IMG/VR virus record: IMGVR_UViG_3300031646_000022
Coordinates: 1-21,136 of that record
DNA length: 21,136 nucleotides
Reading direction: 5' to 3' (one strand)
Source: a virus
A model generated the notes under the pieces. It saw only the letters and a list, made by a program, of their open reading frames with translations. It was not told where the DNA came from and ran no database searches. Both the position numbers and the translations under genes were made by a program. Positions 5,298 through 20,774 of this stretch are shown here, in pieces; positions within the stretch are counted from its first letter, which is position 1; each line of letters opens with the position of its first letter.

Positions 5298-6107
5298 ATG
5301 CGAATCATCTCCTACGGCGGCGGCGTGCAATCCACGGCTCTCTGTGTCCTTGCCGTGCAGGGCAAGATCGGACACATCGACGCGGCCTTGTTCTCCAACG
5401 TGGGTGACGATTCTGAGCATCCGGCGACCATCACCTACGTCCGAGAGGTCATGATCCCGTGGTGTGCGGAGCGAGGACTGCCCGTCCATGAGCTACACCG
5501 CGTGAAACGGAACGGCGACACCGAGACACTCTTGCAGCGACTCCTGAAGCCCGGGTCGCGCTCATTGCCGATCCCCGTGCGGATGCCCGACACTGGCGCT
5601 CCAGGGACGCGGAACTGCACGGCCGATTTCAAGATCAAGGTCGTCACGAAATGGCTCAAAGCGCATGGAGCCACCACGGACGCCCCCGCCGATGTCTGTA
5701 TCGGGTTCAGCACCGATGAAGCGCACCGGGCGAACAATCGCAGCCCCAGTCCCTACGAGATCCCGGTATATCCGTTGCTCGACTCACGGCTATCGCGCAC
5801 GGACTGCAAGAACGTCATCAGCCGTGCGGGGTTGCCAGTCCCCCCAAAAAGCGCCTGTTTCTTTTGCCCGTTCCATCGTCCGGCGATGTGGTCGAAGATG
5901 CGCCGAGACGAGCCGGCGCTGTTTTGGAAATCTGCCGATCTAGAGCAGACCTTGCTTGCGCGACGTGAAATGCTTGGCAAAGACCCGGTCTACCTGACAC
6001 GGTTTGGGAAACCGCTCGCAGAGGCCATTGCCGAGCGTCAAACTGATCTCCCTGGGCTGCTCGACCCCGACACGGATTCGTGCGACGAGGGGTACTGCTG
6101 GACGTGA
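5298..6107 (+). CDS. PAPS reductase-like PP-loop ATP-hydrolase family protein
   Basis: A 269-residue member of the adenine-nucleotide alpha hydrolase (PP-loop) group related to PAPS reductase and common in phages. The PP-loop is SYGGGVQSTA (5-14). RNCTADFKIKVV (106-117) matches the conserved phage 'R-C-T-x-x-FKI' block, and GFSTDEAHR (136-144) the substrate-side block. C107, C170, C187 and C190 (CFFCPFHR) suggest a metal or thiolate site. It lacks the C-terminal redox motif of true assimilatory reductase, so sulphate reduction is unlikely; transfer or activation chemistry on nucleotide, RNA or DNA is more likely but unknown. GAGGT precedes the ATG. The stop overlaps a GTG start of a small membrane protein. 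Confidence 0.88.
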   Translation: MRIISYGGGVQSTALCVLAVQGKIGHIDAALFSNVGDDSEHPATITYVREVMIPWCAERGLPVHELHRVKRNGDTETLLQRLLKPGSRSLPIPVRMPDTGAPGTRNCTADFKIKVVTKWLKAHGATTDAPADVCIGFSTDEAHRANNRSPSPYEIPVYPLLDSRLSRTDCKNVISRAGLPVPPKSACFFCPFHRPAMWSKMRRDEPALFWKSADLEQTLLARREMLGKDPVYLTRFGKPLAEAIAERQTDLPGLLDPDTDSCDEGYCWT

Positions 6108-8910: not shown

Positions 8911-11547
8911 TCATTCTCCTGGGTCTTCGTCGTCATCGTCCTCCTCTGGGTCTGGCACTTCTGGCTTCAGCGGCTCTATGATCGGACGGCCGTTTTCATC
9001 GGTCCATTGCGTATCGTACATGTGCTGATCTTGCCGCTCTGCCACAACCATCCACGAGACGGTGTCGGTACAGTCGCTTTCTTCACAGTCGATGGTGAGC
9101 GTACTGCCAGAGACTGACCCTCGAACATGGAACCAGCCAGTCTCATTTGACGTGAATACCTGCTCATCCCGGCAGAGCAATACCCACGTCCCGACCGTCA
9201 TACCTGCGGCGACATCAAGGTCCACCGTCGCTGCACCATCCGAGAGTGTGACAGTGCCACGATAGATCAAGTCGGCCTTCGGGCCTTCGATAAAGCTATG
9301 AACAAGACTATGCGTGTCCTTCTTGGACGGCAGCGGATGGTCGATCAGGAAACTCCCGCTCCCTTTACTGAGCGCCCCGGCGACGACGACGTTGCCGTTG
9401 TTTTGGACTTCAAACTGCGATGCCCCGTTCTTGTCCACACGAAACGGTATTCCAGTTGCCCCCGAACCGATGTTGACATAGACCCCATTCGCCCCCGTCG
9501 TGCCCGTGTTCGCAAACGTCGCCGCCCACGCGGAGTTATCCGCCGAGGTTTGAATGAGACGGCCCGCGAGCGTCGTGTCCTGCGATGCGTCAACCGTCAG
9601 CGCCTTTGTTCCGGTGACGGTCGTATTGTTCGCAGCCGTCCATATCGACACCTCAGTCGCCGCGTTCAGTCCGGCCGCATTGCCGCCGATGTCCACGACA
9701 TTCGCAGACGTGGTGCTGCTGCCCTTCACCAACGCGACGTTTTCTTCGGCGTTCGTATAATGACGCCCGACGAAGTAACCCGCCTTGTTGGTCGAGTTCG
9801 TTTCGTTGTCCCCAATCCGAAGGGTATTCCAGCCGCTGTCAACGATGTCGATCCTCGCCCCCGGTGTCGCCGTCCCGATGCCGACGTTGCCGCCGTTAGG
9901 ATTCAAAGCGATGGGATACGTAAGAGCCAAGTTCGCGGAGTCTGTATTTTGAAACCATGCCGCCGCCGAGACAGAGTCGGACCCCATGTCTAGGACCGCC
10001 GTCCCGCCCGACTGCGAGAAACGAGCGATACCTGTCTGGGCTGTTCCGGACGAAGCCGGACCACCAATCGTTCCATGCGCGTGGAAGAGGAGTGCCGGGG
10101 CCGTCGTCCCGATGCCGACGTTGCCGCCAGTCGCAATCGTCATGCGTGCTAAATTGCTTGTGGAAAATTGTGTAGCTGCCGCACCAGCATTGCCAAAGAT
10201 CGCAGCATAAGCTAACGATCCTGTAGCTAATTGGCCAGTTACCGTGCCCTCTACGCCCATTCGAGCGTCACCGCCCGTGTTCGACATCTCCGTGTATTGA
10301 TAACCAGTCGTCGCGGTCGTACTCTGGAAAATCAACGTGTTATTGCCCATCGTGGATGCGTAGAGACCCGAAAGGGACAACGACGTGCCCGTAGCAACGC
10401 CGAGCACTGGCGTCGTAAGGGTCGGGCTGGCCTGCATGACAAACGTCGTGCCCGTGCCTGTCTGTGCCGCGATGGACGTCGCGTTACCGACCGAGGTAAT
10501 CGGGCCTGTGAGGTTTGCGTTTGTCGAGACGTTGCCAGCGGTGAGCCCTGCGGCAGTGCCGGTGATGTTCGTGCCGACGAGTGCCGAAGGCGTCCCAAGC
10601 GCAGGCGTCGTAAGGGTGGGTGAGGCCGACATTACGACGTTCCCCGTGCCAGTAATTGCGTTGGAAACCAACCCCTTCGAGCCGTCGCTGAACACGGCCA
10701 CACTGGCTGTCAATGTGGACAACACGGGCTGAGAGGACAATGTTGCCACGCCCGTGACCCCGAGTGTCCCACCCACCACGGCATTCCGACTGAAGAATCC
10801 GTCTCTGGGCCGGGTCGCCCCGGCCTTGCCGATGTCGTAGGTCGCGTCCGTGAAGAGTAGATCCTGGCTAATCGGGTTGGGAATACTCGCAGCGACCACC
10901 GTCGTGGCGGCGAGGAGCAGGGACGAGGTGGTCAGTCCAACGCCCACCTGTCGTAACAGAACCGGAGCCGATGACACAATGGCCCCCGGTGTCGCGCCGA
11001 CGTAATACGTGGTGCCGACAACCACCGTCCCGGCACTGTTGACCTCACCCGCGAGCCTGATGGTGCCGGCGGTGTTAATCGCAATGGCACTCACCGCCAC
11101 GCCGAGACTCTGCGGGGTCGTGCTCGTCGCGGCGGCGTCCGAGTTGGTCAGATACCACTTCCCGGCCGTCAGTGCGGGGGACTCAGCCGCACTGGAGAGG
11201 TACAGCACCTGTCCGGCCGTGACCGCTACGCCGACCGTGCCCTCGATGTCGAGGTTGACTGACGACCCCGGCACGGCCTGGATATTGGTCTGTGTCTCTA
11301 TCGCCGCACCGGCACTGGTCGTGATCGCAAAGGTGAAATTGGACCCGGCCGGGAGATAGGCGACATACCGACCAGCACTGTCCGTGACAATCGGGTTGGT
11401 GTTCGCAGCCGACAACGCCGCGTTGGTGTAGGTCGCCGCATCCACCCCCGTGCCTGTGTCTGTGGTCTTTATCTTCGCCCCAGACACGGCCACGCCATCG
11501 CCATCGAGGACGGTCTGATACGGGGTCGGGGTCAGTGTGCCTGCCAT
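8911..11547 (-). CDS. Tail fibre / receptor-binding protein
   Basis: An 878-residue fibre protein. The N-terminus (AGTLTPTPYQTVLDGDGVAV) resembles phage fibre attachment regions. The centre is low-complexity beta structure rich in Ala, Gly, Thr and Ser, with repeated blocks such as SASPTLTTPALGTPSALVG and GGNVGIGTTAP / GGNVGIGTATP (about 474 and 552) that are typical of trimeric fibre shafts. Residues 729-764 (GSFLIDHPLP ... HSLVHSFIEGPKADLIYRG) form a conserved block that also occurs in many phage fibres. A Cys-containing beta domain (765-845) and an acidic tail PDPEEDDDDEDPGE end the protein. It should bind the host surface. AGAGGAA precedes the ATG. No fibre-specific chaperone domain is obvious. 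Confidence 0.9.
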   Translation of the reverse strand: MAGTLTPTPYQTVLDGDGVAVSGAKIKTTDTGTGVDAATYTNAALSAANTNPIVTDSAGRYVAYLPAGSNFTFAITTSAGAAIETQTNIQAVPGSSVNLDIEGTVGVAVTAGQVLYLSSAAESPALTAGKWYLTNSDAAATSTTPQSLGVAVSAIAINTAGTIRLAGEVNSAGTVVVGTTYYVGATPGAIVSSAPVLLRQVGVGLTTSSLLLAATTVVAASIPNPISQDLLFTDATYDIGKAGATRPRDGFFSRNAVVGGTLGVTGVATLSSQPVLSTLTASVAVFSDGSKGLVSNAITGTGNVVMSASPTLTTPALGTPSALVGTNITGTAAGLTAGNVSTNANLTGPITSVGNATSIAAQTGTGTTFVMQASPTLTTPVLGVATGTSLSLSGLYASTMGNNTLIFQSTTATTGYQYTEMSNTGGDARMGVEGTVTGQLATGSLAYAAIFGNAGAAATQFSTSNLARMTIATGGNVGIGTTAPALLFHAHGTIGGPASSGTAQTGIARFSQSGGTAVLDMGSDSVSAAAWFQNTDSANLALTYPIALNPNGGNVGIGTATPGARIDIVDSGWNTLRIGDNETNSTNKAGYFVGRHYTNAEENVALVKGSSTTSANVVDIGGNAAGLNAATEVSIWTAANNTTVTGTKALTVDASQDTTLAGRLIQTSADNSAWAATFANTGTTGANGVYVNIGSGATGIPFRVDKNGASQFEVQNNGNVVVAGALSKGSGSFLIDHPLPSKKDTHSLVHSFIEGPKADLIYRGTVTLSDGAATVDLDVAAGMTVGTWVLLCRDEQVFTSNETGWFHVRGSVSGSTLTIDCEESDCTDTVSWMVVAERQDQHMYDTQWTDENGRPIIEPLKPEVPDPEEDDDDEDPGE
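9871..10128. repeat. 24-bp direct repeat inside tail fibre gene
   Basis: The same 24 bases occur at 9871-9894 and 10105-10128 (key part CCCGATGCCGACGTTGCC), encoding the GGNVGIGT motif of two fibre repeats 78 codons apart. Perfect identity could allow recombination that drops or adds 78 residues of the shaft. Confidence 0.7.
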
Positions 11548-11574: not shown

Positions 11575-13743
11575 TTAACGCCGTGCGAGCGGATCCTCAG
11601 TGAGCGTCTGGCCGCTCTGGATGCGGTCATTGAGTGGCGGGAGAATGTCTGCCATGGTACGACGTTCTGCTGCTGGCTGACGACCCTCTTCCGATGTATT
11701 GGCTTGTCTCATGGCAATGGCCCCTACGCCAGCTCCTGTGGGAATGCCGCGAAGACGTGCATACTCCCCCAACTTATCAAGCAATTTACTCCGAGAGACT
11801 TGACGTGTCAGCACGCGACCAAGTGCGGCCGTGCTACCCATAGAAAACAGGCCCCACCCTGCGGCGGGTAGTCCACTGATATATGCCGCTGTCGCTGTGC
11901 CAAGACTCATCCCGTAATTGATCGACGTGGCCATGAAAGCCAAGGCGCTCGATGCCTGTGCTGCCGGTCCAAAAATCAAATCAGCAGTCTCAATGATGGA
12001 GTTGATCTCTGTTAATTCTTTCTTCGTGAATAGCTTCTCTAGTTTTTCCGTGTCAAGGACGTTTTCCTGCCAATTCTTCATTTGGCCAGCCTTGAACGAT
12101 GTCGCCTCTGTTTGACCCGTTACAATGCCAGCGCGTTCAGCGACCTCATCGGCAATGCCGAGACTCTTTGATATTTCACCACCCGTGGAACGATTAAATG
12201 CATCGGCCAACAACTTCCCGCGAAGTTCGTCCCAGTCTACTGTGGGAAGTTCCTGCTTCAATATGTCGATGTCATCAACTTTAGCTCGCTCAAACACGCG
12301 ATGTATCTCTTCTGGAGCGGACTTCTGTATTTTGGAAATAACTGAATCGTTAAAGGTTGTTTTCAGTTGCCTCCATGACGCATTCGCATTACGCACCTTG
12401 TCGGCCAATGATATCGTCGTGCCGTCTGGGCCAGTCCAGGTGAGCCTGCTACCCTCCGCGGCTTCCTCCATCGCATCGTTGGCGAGTTGAACCAATCGCT
12501 TGGACTGTCCTTGGGCTTGCCCACCGATGGCCACATCAGTCTTTCTCGTGAGATCGTAGAGTGCGCTCCGTATCCCTTGATAGGTCTTAAAATCAGCGAA
12601 GTCAGGCCCGTCAATAATCTTTTGAAGCTGAGACCGCATAGTGTTTAAGTCTGAACTGTCAATATGACTTGCAATCTCCTCCAATGGCGCGTCCGCGGCT
12701 TTCCTGACACCACGAAGCCTGTCTTCCGCGAACGCCTTGAGCGATGCCTTGCTAACTCGGAGCCCATGGGTCAGTTCGTTAATCTCAGTGTATTCCTGCC
12801 CTATTGTGTCTTTTGCCTCTTCCAGGGCTTCCTTGAGAGAGGTCTTCGCCCGTTTTCCCGCACCAACTGTCCCACGCGCCCCCGCGGTTGGTGAAATACC
12901 TTCAACTACCCTGGATGCCCATTCACCAATGTCCTGTTGCTGTCTTGCTCGCAGTCGATTAAATCGCCCCTCTGAAGTGAACAGCTTTCGAGATAACGAT
13001 TCAACTTTTGTTACCCCTGAAGCCATGACGCTCCCACGCGCCCGTAATCGCTCGGCCAATGACATGGGAATGTCGGATGCCTTCTTAGGCACGACCCTCC
13101 CCACACCTCGGAGTGCGCCAAATGATTTAACCGCAGCACCTGGAATCGCCATCCCAGCAACGCTGCCCAGCGCACTCCCAAGCTCGCCGCGTCCTCCGCG
13201 CTCCCCGATTTCAGCCGCCGCAGGCCCAAGCAGGGGAATTGCAGAGGCCGCACCATGCCCAAGCATTTCACTGTAACGGCCCTCGCTGGCTGCTGTGCGT
13301 GCCTTGCCAAACTGTTCAACTTGTGCTGCTCCCAAGGCTTCACCGGTTTTGAACGGATGCCTGGCTATCTGCCATAATCCTTTCCCAAGTTCAATCGGAT
13401 TCAGTTCGGTGGCGACACGACCAGCGGCCTCTCCCAAATGTTCTGAGATGTCCTTTTCCCACCACCCCTTTGGCTGCACAAACGTCGGGAATCTTACTGG
13501 ATCTTCAGCGAATCCAGACCTTCGATACGCCCTGTATTCCTCCTGTTGGGTACTACTCAGACCAGGTGGATCTGGCGTACGACTAGTTGTCCGTTCGGGG
13601 GTACCGCTCCCGGCTTCTATCGGAAGTACGTCCGAGTAATCCCACTTCCCTCTGTCTGGAGGTTTGGGCGCACTGCTCCCAGATTCTATCGGCAGCATGT
13701 CTGAGTAATCCCACCTCCCGTTGCTGTTCCTTTGCGGTGCCAT
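11575..13743 (-). CDS. Large internal virion / ejection-type protein
   Basis: A 722-residue protein with no firm family match. Residues 9-24 and 32-47 repeat W-DYSD-LPIE (RWDYSDMLPIESGS and KWDYSDVLPIEAGS). Two Gly/Ala-rich hydrophobic regions (about 163-210 and 591-645, the latter with ALAFMATSINYGMSLGTATA) could insert in membrane, and between them lies long charged helix (about 225-560). This layout, and its place between two other large virion genes and the fibre, fit an internal protein released with DNA. Base use is AT-richer than in the replication genes. The start is 3 bp after the upstream stop; its ribosome binding site is weak. No lytic transglycosylase motif is seen. Confidence 0.75.
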   Translation of the reverse strand: MAPQRNSNGRWDYSDMLPIESGSSAPKPPDRGKWDYSDVLPIEAGSGTPERTTSRTPDPPGLSSTQQEEYRAYRRSGFAEDPVRFPTFVQPKGWWEKDISEHLGEAAGRVATELNPIELGKGLWQIARHPFKTGEALGAAQVEQFGKARTAASEGRYSEMLGHGAASAIPLLGPAAAEIGERGGRGELGSALGSVAGMAIPGAAVKSFGALRGVGRVVPKKASDIPMSLAERLRARGSVMASGVTKVESLSRKLFTSEGRFNRLRARQQQDIGEWASRVVEGISPTAGARGTVGAGKRAKTSLKEALEEAKDTIGQEYTEINELTHGLRVSKASLKAFAEDRLRGVRKAADAPLEEIASHIDSSDLNTMRSQLQKIIDGPDFADFKTYQGIRSALYDLTRKTDVAIGGQAQGQSKRLVQLANDAMEEAAEGSRLTWTGPDGTTISLADKVRNANASWRQLKTTFNDSVISKIQKSAPEEIHRVFERAKVDDIDILKQELPTVDWDELRGKLLADAFNRSTGGEISKSLGIADEVAERAGIVTGQTEATSFKAGQMKNWQENVLDTEKLEKLFTKKELTEINSIIETADLIFGPAAQASSALAFMATSINYGMSLGTATAAYISGLPAAGWGLFSMGSTAALGRVLTRQVSRSKLLDKLGEYARLRGIPTGAGVGAIAMRQANTSEEGRQPAAERRTMADILPPLNDRIQSGQTLTEDPLARR

Positions 13744-13746
13744 GAT

Positions 13747-15504
13747 CTAGAAATCCGGGTTAGCGACTAGGAATTGAGAAACTTTTTCATCACTTGAAAG
13801 CATTCCGCGTTCATCCAGGTGCAGACGTACCTGCTGACGTCTTGATCTGGTCATGAGTTCCAGTATTCTCGTTATTTCGGTGCGAGCGGATTCTTCGCTC
13901 ATGCTAGCTTCAAGCCTGGTTCTGGCATTCTTCAAGATAATTATGTCGTTATCAGTCAATGTTCCTGACATCAACGCTAGGCTCTCAATCGTCATCTTGT
14001 CTATGAGGTTCTTCCTAAGGCCCCTGGCATCAGTCGTCTCTTGAATTGTCTTGGGCGTCAATCCGGCCGGGAACCTCCACTCTTCAGCCGCGGCATCCAA
14101 GGCTCCAAACGCACCTTCAAAGCCTTCATGATTGAGGAGATCATTCCCTACAGAAATAATGTCATTAGTTAGCTGAGCATCGTAAGTGCTATCCGATTCA
14201 CCAGTTGAGGAATCGCGACCCGCTCTCGCTTGTGAACTAGCAAGGTTTAGATCCTCCATCCTCTTATTGTGACGTATGGTTTCATTTAACTGCTGTTGTT
14301 CCAGATCCAGGCCGCTCTCAAATTGTTCAATTTCTACCTGAGACATCGCCCGCGTCATGTCTCCATACTGGGTAACCGCAGCATCATATGCCTCGGTGCC
14401 AGGGGTGAGAGCTAAGATTTTAGAAAGTTGATCTTTGAGGGGTTCTGTCCCTGCTGGTGTCTCTGCCAACCCTGAAATCATCCCGAGCCTTGTCTGGCCA
14501 GGGGTGAATACCTGATGACCAACAATGTCGTCTGCCGCCTTGGCTGCATTTGTCAAAGAAGACTGCTGTTCCTCTGGTGACAGATTATGTAATTGAACAC
14601 GCAAGTCATTGACCACGTCTTTACCAAATCGTAACTCCAGCGCGGCCAAGTTGACATCAATAGCGTCGTCAATCGACAGAACTTCAAGTTCTGCCTGCCT
14701 TAAAGCATCAGCCGCGAGTCTTCCTATTAAGACCGTACGGTCTTCGTCGCTTTGAGACTCAAGCGCGTCGAAATCAGAAAACATTTTATTGGTGTTCGTG
14801 ATGTTTCCTAATACCTCATTGATCACATCAGGACTGACGTTCCCTGCTGACATATCGGCCGCAGCCCGACGAGGATCGAATAATCCTTCATCAGTAATAT
14901 AACCACGAATGGTTCTCTCTCTGTTTTCAATGGCCCCGTCTGGCATTACGGTTCCAGGGTCTGCCCCTACAGTTACCGATGGATGATAAGCGCCACTCAA
15001 TGTCCTTGGATCGCTTCCTGTCCATCCTTCACCAAGTGGTCCCCCTGATTGCATACGATCTAGTTCAGTCTCGGTCGGAGCGGCACCGAATGGGAGTCCT
15101 TCTTCTACCGTATCAACCCTGATAGGACTGTCAGTTCTCACAGTTGGCTCGACCGGTTCTCCAGCGAAAGGTGGCCCGACCATTTCACCCGTAGTGCGTC
15201 GGTAAAACGGTTCATTGAGCACCCTCTCTTGTTCACTTCCTCTGGCGAAAATCTCTCGGGCCTTTTCAAGCTCTCTCTGGCGTCTCGCTTCAGGCGAGTT
15301 CCAGTTGGTAATCGCCTGGGAGACAGTATTGCCAATGCCCTGCACGGCCCCGCCCCACGCCTGTCCGCTGGCCTGGGCGGCTTGGGCCTGGGCGTTGGCC
15401 GAGGCGATCAGGGCTTGGGCTTCAGCCTCATTGCCACGACCCATCAGGTCGGCAATGGACCCGACGTAGCGGTTCTGGTTGGGTGTATATCTAAATGGAG
15501 GCAT
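13747..15504 (-). CDS. Internal virion protein, helical, unknown
   Basis: A 585-residue protein. The N-terminus (PPFRYTPNQNRYVGSIADLM and then GNEAEAQALIASANAQAQAA) recalls ejection/internal virion proteins with small-residue helices; a Gly-rich segment (QAWGGAVQGIGNTVSQAI) follows. The remainder is charged and mostly helical without known motifs. The ATG overlaps the stop of the preceding gene (TAATG), with GGAG 9 bp upstream. With its neighbours it forms a three-gene block of large proteins, the arrangement seen for ejection proteins of P22- and T7-type phages. Assignment is by context and composition only. Confidence 0.72.
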   Translation of the reverse strand: MPPFRYTPNQNRYVGSIADLMGRGNEAEAQALIASANAQAQAAQASGQAWGGAVQGIGNTVSQAITNWNSPEARRQRELEKAREIFARGSEQERVLNEPFYRRTTGEMVGPPFAGEPVEPTVRTDSPIRVDTVEEGLPFGAAPTETELDRMQSGGPLGEGWTGSDPRTLSGAYHPSVTVGADPGTVMPDGAIENRERTIRGYITDEGLFDPRRAAADMSAGNVSPDVINEVLGNITNTNKMFSDFDALESQSDEDRTVLIGRLAADALRQAELEVLSIDDAIDVNLAALELRFGKDVVNDLRVQLHNLSPEEQQSSLTNAAKAADDIVGHQVFTPGQTRLGMISGLAETPAGTEPLKDQLSKILALTPGTEAYDAAVTQYGDMTRAMSQVEIEQFESGLDLEQQQLNETIRHNKRMEDLNLASSQARAGRDSSTGESDSTYDAQLTNDIISVGNDLLNHEGFEGAFGALDAAAEEWRFPAGLTPKTIQETTDARGLRKNLIDKMTIESLALMSGTLTDNDIIILKNARTRLEASMSEESARTEITRILELMTRSRRQQVRLHLDERGMLSSDEKVSQFLVANPDF

Positions 15505-17801
15505 TACTGTGCTCCACCCAGTTGGTACATCATATCGAAGTTATCTCTTCTGTTCGTGCGCTGCTGGTTGTACTGCGCAACCCACTTGTCATATCCCTGT
15601 CTCCAGCCCTGATTCTGCGCTCGTAGTCCAAAGTTCTGAGCGTCTTGGTAATTCCTGGCATTCGTGTTGTAGGCACCAGCGCGTCTGTTCTCGGCGGTCT
15701 GGTTCTCATTGAGCCGAGCTATTTCGTTGGTCGTATACCCTTGGAAACGGTTCCGCTCGTTGGTGTTATAGGCGGTCTCTGCGTTACGAACATTCGTGTT
15801 GAACGCGCCTGCACGGTTAAACTCATTTATCCCGTATTCGCCTATGGCGTTACCGTAATTAGTATCGTAGGCACCTGAACGGTTCTGCTCGTTCGTGTCA
15901 TAGGCGGTCGCACGATTACGTTCATTCACGCTGAATGCGCCAGCCCTGTTCCGCTCATTCGTATCGTAGGCGGTCATGGCGTTCCCGAAATTGGCCTCAT
16001 AGGCGTTGAATCGGTTCCGCTCGGCGGTATCGTAGGTGTCCCGCTTACGGGCATCGACGCTTGCATACTCCTGTGACGCCGAGTTTGCTCCGTAATCGAA
16101 GAGACCCTTCATTGTTGCACCAGTTCTACTGATACCGCGTGCGGCACCGCTCCGTTCCAGTGCGTCCAGCCCCTGCTGAAGCCGGAACTGGTAGCTCGGG
16201 TCTGCTGCCGCTTCCGCTGCTGTCGGAAGTTCGTAGGGAGCCGCCGCCTCGTATTCATCACGAGCAAACGGGACAGCCCCTTGATACGTCGCCTGCTGAT
16301 ACGGTGTTGCGGGTCGGTACCGGTCGCCCGCGAACGGGGTCGGTGCCGCATAGGCCGGCGGACGATACGGAGCTGGTGGGACATAGGCTTCGGGGCTGTA
16401 TGTCGCAAGCGGGTTGTAGGGGGTCATCATATTCCCCATCGTGCCGCCGCCACCGCCTGGACCCATCATGCCGCCACCGCCTGGACCCATCATGCCGCCA
16501 CCGCCTGGACCCATCATGCCATAGGTATTCGGTCCCGGGTTCAGCTGCGGAGGTGCCAATGGACTGTCCTCTGGGTATCCGGCCCAGACAGGCGAAGGGT
16601 CGTTTGGTTCAACATCGCCTGTGTCGTCAGTCGTTCCATCGCCCGAACCGGCACCCCACCAGAATCCCCCAGAGGTGTCACCCGCTTGATCGGCACGCAT
16701 CAGCACGTCGACTTCGTAGACCGGGACGCCATCGCTTTCGATTCCGTTGAAATTGATCTTGTCTTTGCCGTCGAAGGTCGCGCCGCCGAATCGGGCTTGA
16801 AAGTCAGCACTCTCAACCATGGCCTTGATTTCTGACGGCTTGGTCAGTCCAGCCAGAAATCCGCCGGCGTCATACTTCATGCTGCCGTGGCCTGATTCCC
16901 ACTTGGTCTGGTCGAATCCTCCTGGTGCCTGACCGGTGCGCGGAGGAGGTTCCCCTGTATTTCCCGGCCCTGCGGCAGCCTCTTTCAGACGGTTTCCCTC
17001 ATGCGCTACGCCACGTAACCAGCCTGGGAGTCCCTCAATCCCTTCTGGTCCCCACTCGTTCGTGCCGTCCCACCATGCCTCGAACTCCTCATCTGACATC
17101 TCCCGATCAAGATGTTCGAGATACGCAGCCTGCATCTGACCTTTTGCGTCTTCCTTCTCGGGGTCTTCATTGCCGCCGGTAGCCTCAGGCGCGCTATAAA
17201 GCCCCGCCTCCTCGGATGTCCGTATCCCGTTGATGGCGTGCCGAACATTCGCGGGAGCAAAATATCGCCCACCAGATAACTGGTTTGAGATTTCCTGCTG
17301 CGAGGCATCTCGACCAAGGTATGTCCTGTAGGCGTCCTGTATTTGCCGACTCGCAGACTGGTAGGTATTGCCGCCCTGACTTGCCGCCGATCCTGTGGCT
17401 CCAGTATTTGGCGGTATGGTCGTGTTTCCGCCTACGGGAGTATATGGACCACGGCCTCGACCGCCAGCGTAGGGGTCATTTTCAGGGCCACTCGTTTGGT
17501 CATCTGAGAACCCCTCTGGAATCATATTGCCCATAGTCTGGTTAGACTGATTCCTGTTTGCTGCATCTCGGGCCTCTTGATCCCGAATGGCTTGAAGCCT
17601 GCCCTCTTCTACACGGTCGGCTTGATCCTGTTGGTAGGCTTGACCCTCACCAGAGTTTTGGATCGCATTCAACCAGTCATCGAGTCCACCGCCATGGAAT
17701 TGACCTGTCGCCCATCCCTCTACGTCCTCTTCTGACGCATCACGGCCGAGGTAGTCCAGGTATGCCTGCCGAATTGCGGCCCGATCTCTATCACTCGCCA
17801 T
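15504..17801 (-). CDS. Multidomain virion protein with DUF4214-like and 11-residue repeats
   Basis: A 765-residue protein. Residues 8-50, 152-196 and 222-272 are three divergent DUF4214-like repeats (AYLDYLGRDASEEDVEGW, AYRTYLGRDASQQE, AYLEHLDREMSDEEFEAWW). Residues 296-370 contain a conserved phage block with KWESGHGSMKYDAGGFLAGL and ATFDGKDKINFNG. Then follow MMGPGGGG x3 (429-452), a Pro/Tyr-rich linker (462-525), the phage injection-protein signature YQFRLQQGLDALERSGAARG ... YGANSASQEY (537-579), and about 13 copies of an 11-residue unit AYDTNERNRAG (589-731). ATG at 17801 has GGGAG 8 bp upstream; an upstream TTG at 17828 is weaker. Likely an internal or DNA-transfer virion protein. Confidence 0.82.
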   Translation of the reverse strand: MASDRDRAAIRQAYLDYLGRDASEEDVEGWATGQFHGGGLDDWLNAIQNSGEGQAYQQDQADRVEEGRLQAIRDQEARDAANRNQSNQTMGNMIPEGFSDDQTSGPENDPYAGGRGRGPYTPVGGNTTIPPNTGATGSAASQGGNTYQSASRQIQDAYRTYLGRDASQQEISNQLSGGRYFAPANVRHAINGIRTSEEAGLYSAPEATGGNEDPEKEDAKGQMQAAYLEHLDREMSDEEFEAWWDGTNEWGPEGIEGLPGWLRGVAHEGNRLKEAAAGPGNTGEPPPRTGQAPGGFDQTKWESGHGSMKYDAGGFLAGLTKPSEIKAMVESADFQARFGGATFDGKDKINFNGIESDGVPVYEVDVLMRADQAGDTSGGFWWGAGSGDGTTDDTGDVEPNDPSPVWAGYPEDSPLAPPQLNPGPNTYGMMGPGGGGMMGPGGGGMMGPGGGGGTMGNMMTPYNPLATYSPEAYVPPAPYRPPAYAAPTPFAGDRYRPATPYQQATYQGAVPFARDEYEAAAPYELPTAAEAAADPSYQFRLQQGLDALERSGAARGISRTGATMKGLFDYGANSASQEYASVDARKRDTYDTAERNRFNAYEANFGNAMTAYDTNERNRAGAFSVNERNRATAYDTNEQNRSGAYDTNYGNAIGEYGINEFNRAGAFNTNVRNAETAYNTNERNRFQGYTTNEIARLNENQTAENRRAGAYNTNARNYQDAQNFGLRAQNQGWRQGYDKWVAQYNQQRTNRRDNFDMMYQLGGAQ
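15609..16037 (-). repeat. 11-residue (33-bp) repeat domain, about 13 copies
   Basis: Coding repeat with a 33-bp period inside the 765-residue virion protein: units such as AYDTNERNRAG, AFSVNERNRAT, AYNTNERNRFQ and GYTTNEIARLN. The aromatic and NE/NR positions recur every 11 residues, which suggests a right-handed (hendecad) helical bundle. Units have diverged in sequence, so this is an old repeat. Confidence 0.75.
16447..16518 (-). repeat. 24-bp tandem repeat, 3 perfect copies (MMGPGGGG)
   Basis: Three identical 24-bp units at 16447-16470, 16471-16494 and 16495-16518 encode MMGPGGGG, a flexible linker between the N- and C-terminal halves of the virion protein. Perfect identity at DNA level points to recent expansion and possible length variation. 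Confidence 0.85.
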
Positions 17802-17824: not shown

Positions 17825-18340
17825 TCAAACGAGCCGGTTTTTGTTACGGTCGTTTTGATCACTGTAATCCGTGGGGTCTGGCTCGTAGTCGGGCAGGAAC
17901 GGCTTCTTGTATACCCATGCATCGGGAGACACGTTGATAGATTCAGCCTTGTTCGGCATCCCCATCATCTGACGCATCGTGTTGAACTGTTTCTGGTTCT
18001 CGCCATAGAGCCTGTCATCGGTGAGATTCCTCGCTACAAGCTCATTCCGCCTGTTTACCCCGGTGTCATTATATTGGGCGGACGCATTCATCATCTCGGC
18101 TTTCGAGAGTCCGTAATTCTGTCGATCCGTCCATTGCTTGGACTCACGATCTATGCGGTCCTGGTTGCGTAGATAGTCCAATTTGTCCATATTCGACTGA
18201 CGCTGCAATTCAGCCGCCCGCAGGGCTGCGTCAGTCGTTATTTGTGCGCCTCGACCGGCAGCACCGCTCTGCATCTTGGCAGCGCCGATTGAGCCAAGAC
18301 CACCAGCGATTCCAGCGATAGCCGTCCCTACTCCAATCAT
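17825..18340 (-). CDS. Small internal virion / DNA-ejection-like protein
   Basis: A 171-residue protein that begins with a Gly/Ala/Ile-rich membrane-active segment (IGVGTAIAGIAGGLGSIGAA) followed by long polar helices (DAALRAAELQRQSNMDKLDY, ESKQWTDRQNYGLSKAEMMN). This is the common form of gp14/gp7-like ejection proteins, although overall sequence is not one I can assign. C-terminal part (130-171) is acidic and Asn/Asp-rich. AGGAG 8 bp before the ATG. The stop region overlaps the possible upstream extension of the 765-residue gene but not its preferred start. Confidence 0.72.
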   Translation of the reverse strand: MIGVGTAIAGIAGGLGSIGAAKMQSGAAGRGAQITTDAALRAAELQRQSNMDKLDYLRNQDRIDRESKQWTDRQNYGLSKAEMMNASAQYNDTGVNRRNELVARNLTDDRLYGENQKQFNTMRQMMGMPNKAESINVSPDAWVYKKPFLPDYEPDPTDYSDQNDRNKNRLV

Positions 18341-18358: not shown

Positions 18359-18385
18359 CGCATGATAAAAATGCAATCTCATGCG
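18359..18385. repeat. Short inverted repeat between GNAT and virion gene
   Basis: CGCATGA (18359-18365) and TCATGCG (18379-18385) form a 7-bp stem with a 13-base AT-rich loop, overlapping the GNAT stop. It is the only gap larger than 30 bp in this part of the late operon. Too weak to call a terminator; possibly an mRNA processing or end-protection element. Confidence 0.35.
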
Positions 18386-18816
18386 CCTAACTCCTTCTGG
18401 TAGGAGATTTCCGTCCGAGTGAATCCCATGCGGTCGTAGAACTGTCCGACGCGCTCGGTGGGGGCGATCATTTGGAGCGCCTTGGCCCCATGCTCGATGG
18501 CCCACGATTCAGCCGCACGCAGGAGACGGACCCCGTCACCTCGCTGACCCGGCGTGACCCACCAGAACACCTCACCGGCATACATTTCACCAGATAGGAA
18601 ATGCAGGGTGCAGACGAGTCCGATCATCCCCACCAGAATGCCATCTCGCTCAAGGACCAGAATCGCACCGGACTCATGGCCAATCAAATTGCCCGCAACA
18701 ATCGCCATCTGCTCGGGGTTCTCGCGCAGGACATCCCGGTACATCTCTGTCTGGGCGAATTGACGACCCATCGCCACCAGGGCCGGAACATCCTCCATGG
18801 TCGCCGGTCGAATCAC
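18379..18816 (-). CDS. GNAT-family N-acetyltransferase
   Basis: A 145-residue acetyl-CoA-dependent acetyltransferase. The start IRPATMEDVPALVAMGRQFA is the usual GNAT strand 1/helix 1; strands 3-4 are ILVLERDGILVGMIGLVCT and YAGEVFWWVTP, and the acetyl-CoA loop is Q91-R-G-D-G95 followed by helix VRLLRAAESWAIEHGA. The end carries FYDRMGFTRTE, the common GNAT strand 6 block. It begins with GTG overlapping the 161-residue gene's TGA (GTGA); the larger open frame upstream to 19659 is a shadow of its neighbours. Substrate unknown. Placement within the structural operon means late expression, pointing to a virion or host protein target. Confidence 0.88.
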   Translation of the reverse strand: MIRPATMEDVPALVAMGRQFAQTEMYRDVLRENPEQMAIVAGNLIGHESGAILVLERDGILVGMIGLVCTLHFLSGEMYAGEVFWWVTPGQRGDGVRLLRAAESWAIEHGAKALQMIAPTERVGQFYDRMGFTRTEISYQKELGA

Positions 18817-19298
18817 GCGACCAGTTCGCAGGACACGTCCAGACTGTATTGCATCGTCGTGCCCCCCGCACTGACATACGTCGTCGCATAAGTAATCGCG
18901 GTCGCCTCGTCCACGCGGGCCAGGACTGTCAGGCTCCCCACCGTCGCGGTCGTGTTGCCGGTCATCGCCGGACTCGCCGTGGTGCAACTCACGCCCCCGG
19001 AGGTCCATCCGAACGTCACGATCAGGGACGAACTGGTCGTCGCCGCCCGTGAGATCCGTGCCGACATCGAGAGCCGATACAACCCCGGTGACACCGACAG
19101 GATCGAGAAGCTGGTCGCGCTGATCGACGCCGCTTGTGTGGACGCCTTTACGCTCGCTAAAATCTCTGGCGTGGCATTGATCCGGTCGGCCAGGGACAGA
19201 AGCCAATAGCGCATCAGAAACGTGAGCCGGCCCGAAATTCGTCCGTTCGTCACGTCCTGCTCGACCACGATGGCCGGCGTCGGTGCGAGATTCGCCAT
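18813..19298 (-). CDS. Hypothetical virion protein next to gp10-like gene
   Basis: A 161-residue protein. The N-terminal half is helical (ISGRLTFLMRYWLLSLADRI, PEILASVKASTQAASI); the C-terminal half is beta-rich and Thr/Ser/Gly-rich (GVSCTTASPAMTGNTTATVG, YVSAGGTTMQYSLDVSCELV), as in small tail or decoration proteins. No named family. GGGAGAA 8 bp upstream of ATG; 3 bp after the gp10-like stop. The stop overlaps the GNAT start, so the two are co-translated. Confidence 0.72.
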   Translation of the reverse strand: MANLAPTPAIVVEQDVTNGRISGRLTFLMRYWLLSLADRINATPEILASVKASTQAASISATSFSILSVSPGLYRLSMSARISRAATTSSSLIVTFGWTSGGVSCTTASPAMTGNTTATVGSLTVLARVDEATAITYATTYVSAGGTTMQYSLDVSCELVA

Positions 19299-19301
19299 GT
19301 G

Positions 19302-20774
19302 TCATTCTCCCGGCCCCTGAATGTTCCGACCTTCGACATTCGCGCCGACGAGACGCCACGGGATAGGGTCTGAGACCGACAGTTCGGGCACCCAGACGCG
19401 ATCCGAACTCGCCAGCCGTGTCCAGTAGACCCGCGTATTGAACTCGCCTTGTTTGCCCGCAGAGGCCAATTGTGTGGCGCTCCACCGCTTCAGGTCCGTC
19501 GAGGTCCGCATCATCATCTGTGGGTCCACGCCTTGGCCTGTCGAAGTGCCCAGTCCCGGCTCCAGCAGTACGGTCAGGCGCGAAACGAAGAGCCGCCGTC
19601 CCTGACCGAGCCACAGTGGGGGAGGGATACGCACGCGGCGAATCACGTCCCCATTGCACTCGGTGGCGTAGTCCGTGTCCATCGTGCAGATCAGGCCCGA
19701 GGTGCGGTTCCCGACGAGATGCTGTCCGAACGCATAACAGTGACTGCGCGGCCCCCAGAGGTCGTAGTCCCCGTCGCTACTGTCCCAGACACCCCGCTCG
19801 TGCCACAAGCCCGTCGCGAGATCGAACACCCACGTCGCATTGGCACTGGGAAAGGTCAGACAGTAAAACGTGTGGCCCTGGTCGCTATAGACGACCGCTT
19901 CCGCATCAGAGATGGTGCTCGTGCGGGCATACCCGGCGATGGCGGTCTCGATGGCGTAGGAACTGATGCGCTGGGGTTCCAGTCCTGTCGCCGCCACCAC
20001 GACCCCAGCCCCCTCGGCCGTCTGCGAGAGCCAGATCATCGTGTCGTTCGCGAGCTTGACCGAATACGGCGCAGGCGTGCCATACCCGAATACCGACCCC
20101 GGCACAGGCGCGAACGGGAACGGGCTGGTCCCGGCGTCATACCAGACCTCGCCCGTCTGCTCACCAATGAGCCAAATCTGCCGGTTGCCGTCCACGACCA
20201 TCGCTTTCCAGGGGTCTGGGGCAATACTGCGCTGGGCAGACTGCGTGGCGTCCCAGCTCGCGCCGTTGTTCAAGGCGGAAATGTAGAATTTGGAGGCGGC
20301 TGAGTCGAAGGACAGGAAATACCCATCAATCATGCCGACCATCGTGCATTTACCGGCGAGGGTGCCGATGCTCGCACTCAACGTATTGCTTGCGATGGTG
20401 AGCAGATAGGCGTTGGTGCCTGACCCGATCAGGAGCTGACCGCCTGCGTCTCCGTTGCTCGCAATTGAGGCTGGATTGGGGTCATTGACGACGGTGCCGC
20501 TCGTGACGACCGCCGCTGAGTTCGTCTCGTAAATCTGGTAGACGTGCGGGCCCACGACGGAATAACACCGCCCGGCCATGGCGAACAAGGCGCGACAATT
20601 CAGGTCATTGACGGTGACATACTCTTCGTAGCCTGGGCACGGATAGAGGGCCGCGCTATGGGGCGATGACGACGCCTGCGACTGCTCTGGATACCAATTG
20701 ACCGTGCGTTCGCAGTCAGCCCACGGACTCTGGTCTTCATTCGATCCGTAGATGAAACCTGGATACTGGGCCAT
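19302..20774 (-). CDS. P22 gp10-like tail hub / packaged DNA stabilisation protein
   Basis: A 490-residue protein of the P22 gp10 type, which closes the portal after packaging and joins the tail needle region. The N-terminal block GFIYGSNEDQSPWADCERTV followed by NWYPEQ (7-32) is the diagnostic start of this family, followed by repeated beta-strand segments (LFAMAGRCYSVVGPHVYQIY, GQLLIGSGTNAYLLTI, YVSDQ-type turns) consistent with a beta-propeller. Length agrees with P22 gp10 (about 470). Its ATG overlaps the stop of the preceding gp4-like gene by two bases. It sits directly behind that gene, as in P22-like tail clusters. Confidence 0.87.
   Translation of the reverse strand: MAQYPGFIYGSNEDQSPWADCERTVNWYPEQSQASSSPHSAALYPCPGYEEYVTVNDLNCRALFAMAGRCYSVVGPHVYQIYETNSAAVVTSGTVVNDPNPASIASNGDAGGQLLIGSGTNAYLLTIASNTLSASIGTLAGKCTMVGMIDGYFLSFDSAASKFYISALNNGASWDATQSAQRSIAPDPWKAMVVDGNRQIWLIGEQTGEVWYDAGTSPFPFAPVPGSVFGYGTPAPYSVKLANDTMIWLSQTAEGAGVVVAATGLEPQRISSYAIETAIAGYARTSTISDAEAVVYSDQGHTFYCLTFPSANATWVFDLATGLWHERGVWDSSDGDYDLWGPRSHCYAFGQHLVGNRTSGLICTMDTDYATECNGDVIRRVRIPPPLWLGQGRRLFVSRLTVLLEPGLGTSTGQGVDPQMMMRTSTDLKRWSATQLASAGKQGEFNTRVYWTRLASSDRVWVPELSVSDPIPWRLVGANVEGRNIQGPGE

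Follow-up and report, generated by a model that had tools for sequence, protein, structure and literature searches.

An enlarged gp7-type ejection protein with a hendecad helical array, divided over two genes, in an uncultured virus

An uncultured virus was found to encode a strongly enlarged protein of the gp7 type, which belongs to the DNA ejection proteins of tailed phages. The DNA analysed here (the window) is a record of 21,136 bases from this virus. The protein has 765 aa, versus 229 aa for P22 gp7. Compared with P22 gp7, its N-terminal segment is encoded by a separate gene, and DUF4214-like domains, a second conserved domain, linkers and 12 hendecads have been added. Its family membership, the division of the gene, the repeat structure and the stepwise lengths are established here by comparison of sequences. 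Taken as a whole, the evidence makes it rather probable that this is a split gp7-type ejection protein whose helical array extends the DNA conduit. The features of the locus are as follows.

19302..20774, minus strand: P22 gp10-like head closure protein (Hc3), the upstream landmark (phrog_578, E 5e-89)
17825..18340, minus strand: small gene, 171 aa, homologous to the N-terminal segment of one-gene gp7
15504..17801, minus strand: whole CDS of the enlarged gp7-type ejection protein, 765 aa, ATG at 17801
17631..17792, minus strand: DUF4214-like (LGR) unit 1, residues 4-57
17196..17357, minus strand: DUF4214-like (LGR) unit 2, residues 149-202
16983..17153, minus strand: DUF4214-like (LGR) unit 3, residues 217-273, fold predicted
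16641..16940, minus strand: conserved unnamed domain (GFDQTKW..KYD..GKDK..WWG), residues ~288-387
16446..16520, minus strand: Met-Gly linker (MMGPGGGG), period 24, 3.1 copies, 100% matches
16203..16424, minus strand: Pro-aromatic region, residues ~460-533, repeating every 11 residues (A-[TV]-P-[FY]-x-R-x-E-Y-x-A)
16035..16202, minus strand: gp7 signature core, residues 534-589
15639..16034, minus strand: helical array, 12 hendecads or six 22-residue units, residues 590-721
13747..15504, minus strand: gp20-like ejection protein (phrog_2534, E 3e-8; P22 gp20 matches phrog_2534 too)
11575..13743, minus strand: third ejection protein in the gp16 slot, assigned by position

Membership in the gp7 family and division over two genes

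The open reading frame at 15504-17801 and a phage injection signature within it had both been proposed by a sequence-only reading, and both were borne out, the frame with its ATG at 17801. Residues 533-663 match phrog_598, annotated 'DNA ejection', with E 4e-5. The match covers only positions 88-211 of the 240 profile positions, and positions 1-87 have no counterpart in the 765-aa protein. The same family is matched by P22 gp7 (2e-95), by one-gene phage homologs (2e-59 to 1e-45) and by L004 (1.3e-4). When the window core was compared with the one-gene homologs by profile, E was 6.6e-18. A tblastn search found 27 phage records, which aligned in the core alone and had a P22-like gene order in the records examined. 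The window itself has the order 10-...-7-20-16, the same as P22, with the gp7-type gene between the gp10-type and gp20-type genes. Since the phrog_598 signature and the P22 gene order coincide, we assign the 765-aa protein to the gp7-type ejection proteins. An ejection role is thus supported by homology and gene order, and the protein itself would leave the virion for the cell.

The link to P22 gp7 runs through phrog_598 (also annotated DNA transfer protein p32), with which the protein shares the signature core, the gene order and the gp20-type gene that follows. A direct HMM search of the window core against P22 gp7 gave no match, and a direct link was dropped for this reason, leaving phrog_598 as the connecting family. 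The curated cut-off of Pfam P22_gp7 (PF25688) was not reached by the window protein; a one-gene homolog gave E 0.005, also short of the cut-off. The equivalent ejectosome slot in T7 is that of gp14, the outer-membrane ejection protein (PMC8954989). Pfam T7_gp14 gave no sequence match to the window protein and a weak match (E 0.03) to the N-terminus of one one-gene homolog. A sequence search of the PDB returned nothing useful, and no relative of the core with a solved structure. Scans of genome contigs, for the core plus array and for the second domain, found no relatives, and therefore gave no clue to a prophage or host. The gene in the gp16 slot has no detectable sequence relative, and tblastn of the 171-aa and 722-aa neighbour proteins against phage records gave no matches.

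Among ejection proteins, the gp14/gp7 class is described as varying least in sequence and size, with 181-240 aa (PMC8954989), and the 765 aa found here lie outside this range. The relatives are likewise enlarged, by big N-terminal additions or by long C-terminal arrays. The family, from short-tailed phages, spans ~40 uncultured phage contigs, ~17 of them with the window architecture. A class held to be constant in size is therefore split and modular here, and can reach three or four times the usual size. The literature that we searched, which leaves most subscription journals outside, does not describe such a size, split or domain content, nor a quantised helix; these appear new, and the core is already known as that of the gp7 family. 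The earlier statement that the protein has no counterpart in model phages holds accordingly for the N-terminal half and for the whole architecture, and fails for the core.

The N-terminal part of gp7 was found in the 171-aa gene, which lies 23 bases upstream of the 765-aa gene and starts with a Gly/Ala-rich hydrophobic segment. A family HMM of the small gene matches one-gene gp7 proteins over ~50 residues at their N-terminus (L109 8e-5, L106 3e-4, VvAW1 8e-4, BA3 1.6e-3), and the best match to reversed sequences had E 0.98. In a narrower hhalign comparison of the small gene with gp7 N-termini, 2 of 200 shuffles scored equally well. The small gene stands upstream of the array-bearing cores in all loci with sufficient upstream DNA, and as a separate gene it is missing from the four one-gene forms. 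From this homology and this absence it follows that gp7 was split in the window's line, or that two genes were fused in the other; the sequences are compatible with either direction.

At 15502-15506 the ATG of the gp20-like gene and the stop of the 765-aa gene share one base, an overlap that points to coupled translation within the ejection operon. A GNAT acetyltransferase gene (phrog_1249, E 2e-26; 18379-18885, minus strand) also lies within the structural operon, between the gp10-like gene and the ejection genes, where relatives have similar or other accessory genes.

The helical array and its length steps

Within residues 590-721 we counted 47 identities at lag 11, while 10,000 shuffles gave a mean of 13 and a maximum of 27. 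The lag identity of the array was higher at 22 and 44 residues (0.39 and 0.37) than at 11 and 33 (0.28 and 0.30). The hendecads alternate in two kinds, and the true unit is therefore 22 residues. Position 8 is Arg in all 45 odd units, and position 4 is Asn in all 45 even ones. The least variable positions (1, 4, 5, 7, 8 and 11) form one unbroken stretch of an 11/3 helical wheel, for which we calculated a chance of ~0.02 (11 of 462 six-position sets), and the conserved residues of the 22-residue super-repeat occupy one face of the helix. About 13 units of 11 residues had been proposed from the sequence-only reading. The hendecads are indeed far above chance; the register covers 12 of them rather than 13, and the repeating unit is twice as long.

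The length of the array changes in steps. Arrays of 8, 10 or 12 units were found in the window's clade. Of 24 non-redundant members, which share ancestry and do not count as 24 independent events, 20 have a core-to-stop length within one residue of a multiple of 11; the lengths range from 143 to 232 residues. The resultant of these lengths was 0.75 at period 11 and at most 0.54 at the other periods from 5 to 19. The helix thus changes by whole steps of 11 residues in the family and of 22 residues in the window's own clade. The one-gene gp7 homologs L105, L107 and L011 have only one or two units at the array position, which indicates that the array probably expanded in place from a short helix after the core. 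Identity between the array units at the DNA level is poor (at most 23 of 33 nt), so the units are old and maintained by selection.

A monomer prediction by AlphaFold placed residues 564-758 in one straight helix, at modest confidence (mean pLDDT of the array 60, pTM 0.19). The continuous long rod that had been suggested before is in line with this prediction. A helical hairpin could be expected from the 22-residue step, and was set aside in view of the straight helix predicted. Only 5% of the array residues are I, L, V or M, so a hydrophobic core is lacking and the array is unlikely to form a helical bundle of the classical hydrophobic kind. N, Q and R make up 35% of the array, compared with 17% elsewhere in the protein and 30% in the phiX174 H tube.

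The H tube is a 170 A DNA conduit built of 121 residues in hendecad and heptad helices, with a lumen lined by N, Q and R (PMC7354561). The array has 132 residues and would be ~200 A long if helical, and it resembles H in its hendecads rich in N, Q and R. A polar hendecad helix of this length, set beside the N/Q/R-lined H tube, led us to propose that the array makes up or lines a tube for the DNA at the tip of the tail. By this analogy, it may work like the H tube in lengthening a conduit at infection. The two proteins show no homology, and they differ in that H has 21% I/L/V/M and also heptads, the array 5% and hendecads only; the tube, established for H, is conjectured for the array.

N-terminal domains and linkers

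Three N-terminal repeats had been described as DUF4214-like, and an HMM search of residues 1-280 had been proposed for them. Such a search fails with the Pfam model: DUF4214 (PF13946) gave no match at any threshold tried, with the whole protein, single units, the genome or 10 related records. Likeness was found by other means. A profile trained without the window and its close relatives recovered the three units with E 3e-20, 1e-9 and 5e-22, and recovered none in the reversed protein. In hhalign against DUF4214 proteins from plasmids, P was 2.8e-4 with a score of 22.7, while the maximum of 200 column shuffles was 16.7. Among viral proteins, the predicted fold of residues 209-388 was closest to a 'DUF4214 domain-containing protein' from an uncultured phage (E 5e-7). 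In the PDB, phycobilisome linker domains were among the best fold matches (E 2.3 and 9.1), a resemblance of the predicted fold that we take as a lead only. The units and DUF4214 have in common the motif Y..yLGR...W....S.E, in matching order over the domain, whereas the window units have another loop, a WWsG-ygWG insertion, and a setting in a phage ejection protein rather than a secreted one. Profile and fold comparisons thus support a distant relationship of the N-terminal units to DUF4214, as far as can be judged from sequence and model. If so, the gp7-type setting offers a context for giving the DUF4214-like domain a function.

The copy number of these units varies from 0 to 4 in relatives: the window has 3, L040 has 4 and L023 has none, and L003, L005, L006, L036 and L040 are truncated at contig edges. 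Nine aligned LGR units were too variable for use as a search profile. Tblastn of residues 1-277 found no match in 50,697 phage records. One sister clade has an LGR unit in a gene of its own, immediately upstream of the core gene (L087, E 1.5e-6; weaker in L081, L076 and L080). The window clade therefore looks like a fusion of these neighbours, and this apparent fusion suggests that the LGR units and the core function jointly.

The second conserved domain and the Pro-aromatic repeat had been overlooked in the earlier domain list, of which the other parts are present. Other proteins of uncultured phages share this second domain; two of them, L045 and L048, have an LGR unit as well and are encoded directly downstream of another structural-looking gene. 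PHROGs returned nothing for the other second-domain proteins or their neighbours. An unrelated-looking phage protein (L046, 4668-6314) carries the second domain, an AAR..GLG..SG signature and polar helical repeats, and is perhaps another ejection protein.

The linkers are variable in length. The Met-Gly linker was correctly read before as three perfect 24-bp copies, found at 16446-16520. Its prediction as a site of length change was also supported, the unit being present in 0-3 copies in relatives. The Pro-aromatic repeat was significant at lag 11 in the window (p = 0.0003), and its identity at lag 11 was 0.26 in the family, against ~0.1 at most other lags. L041 and L042 are identical over 1,650 bases save one 48-bp in-frame deletion (near 5606-5654 of L042), which falls in the Pro-aromatic repeat region. 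Such a difference between otherwise identical sequences indicates that length change in this region is recent and ongoing, unless it is an artefact of assembly. In L034, L026, L028 and L027, the N-terminal linkers are tandem micro-repeats (PDPGPYPPL, GDDTG, TERDG, AAPGP) with differing copy numbers. One relative has an open frame that reaches 1000 codons.

Proposed working and other readings

According to PMC8402733 and PMC8954989, gp7-type proteins leave the virion and take part in building the conduit across the envelope; a post-ejection fragment of T7 gp14 is a hexameric helical channel (PMC8954989). We propose that the 765-aa protein, being of the P22 gp7 type, resides inside the virion, is packed into the head and leaves it together with the DNA. 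The 171-aa product carries the N-terminal segment of gp7, and the 765-aa protein the signature core plus its additions. These are the DUF4214-like units, the second domain and the flexible Gly and Pro-aromatic linkers on the N side, and on the C side the 22-residue super-repeat helix, into which a single short post-core helix has probably expanded. After adsorption, the helices would most likely align side by side as a tube, with their conserved Asn/Arg/Tyr face towards the interior. Such a tube would extend the DNA path from the tail to the periplasm and so span the envelope, and the N-terminal domains would tether or anchor it on the flexible linkers. More tentatively, and in our view doubtful, a gp7 of tailed phages may have evolved a phiX174-H-like tube in which the 22-residue units act as a ruler of ~33 A each, with 8, 10 or 12 hendecads fitting different host envelopes. 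With the natural length variants one could test which factors determine how long a DNA conduit across the envelope is.

The composition of the array, rich in Asn and Arg and poor in hydrophobic residues, would also suit a protein that binds or organises the packaged genome in the head, for packaging or retention, with any conduit formed by the gp20- and gp16-like proteins alone. P22 ejection proteins and DNA share the virion space, as PMC8402733 describes. However, the conserved face also carries Glu and Tyr, and steps of whole hendecads suggest a register with identical neighbours, not loose contact with DNA, so we consider this reading unlikely. Lower still we place a head-assembly or hub protein, which would remain in the particle, bind virion parts by its DUF4214-like units and use the helix as scaffold or spacer. 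The joint occurrence of the LGR unit and second domain downstream of a structural-looking gene would fit such a hub, but the core belongs to a DNA-ejection family and the gene stands in the 7-20-16 order.

The same core homology and gene position, which indicate an internal, ejected protein, make it very unlikely that the N-terminus is an outward ligand on the tail with the helix as stalk. DUF4214, the likeness of the N-terminal domains, is typical of secreted proteins, and linkers that are flexible and variable in copy number would also suit a surface adhesin or fibre; yet an 878-aa gene at 8911-11547 looks, from its sequence, like the fibre gene. Drift of low-complexity sequence without structural role is the least probable reading and was already disfavoured. 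Micro-repeat linkers are common across the family, but the invariant Arg and Asn positions, the one-sided conservation, the 11-residue length steps and the age of the selected units, visible in their low DNA identity, all speak against drift. The split gp7-type protein with a conduit-extending array is thus the reading that we prefer.

Two other features were observed in the window. A gene at 5298-6107 on the plus strand begins MRIISYGGGVQSTAL, and its product looks like a PAPS-reductase/ATP-pyrophosphatase family protein; in phages, this family is often tied to DNA modification. A tandem repeat of GCGTGTTTTA, ~6 copies of 10 bp, lies at 2315-2376, just upstream of the start of a 685-aa gene (246-2303) that looks like a primase-helicase, and the repeats are possibly iterons, an origin or a promoter region.
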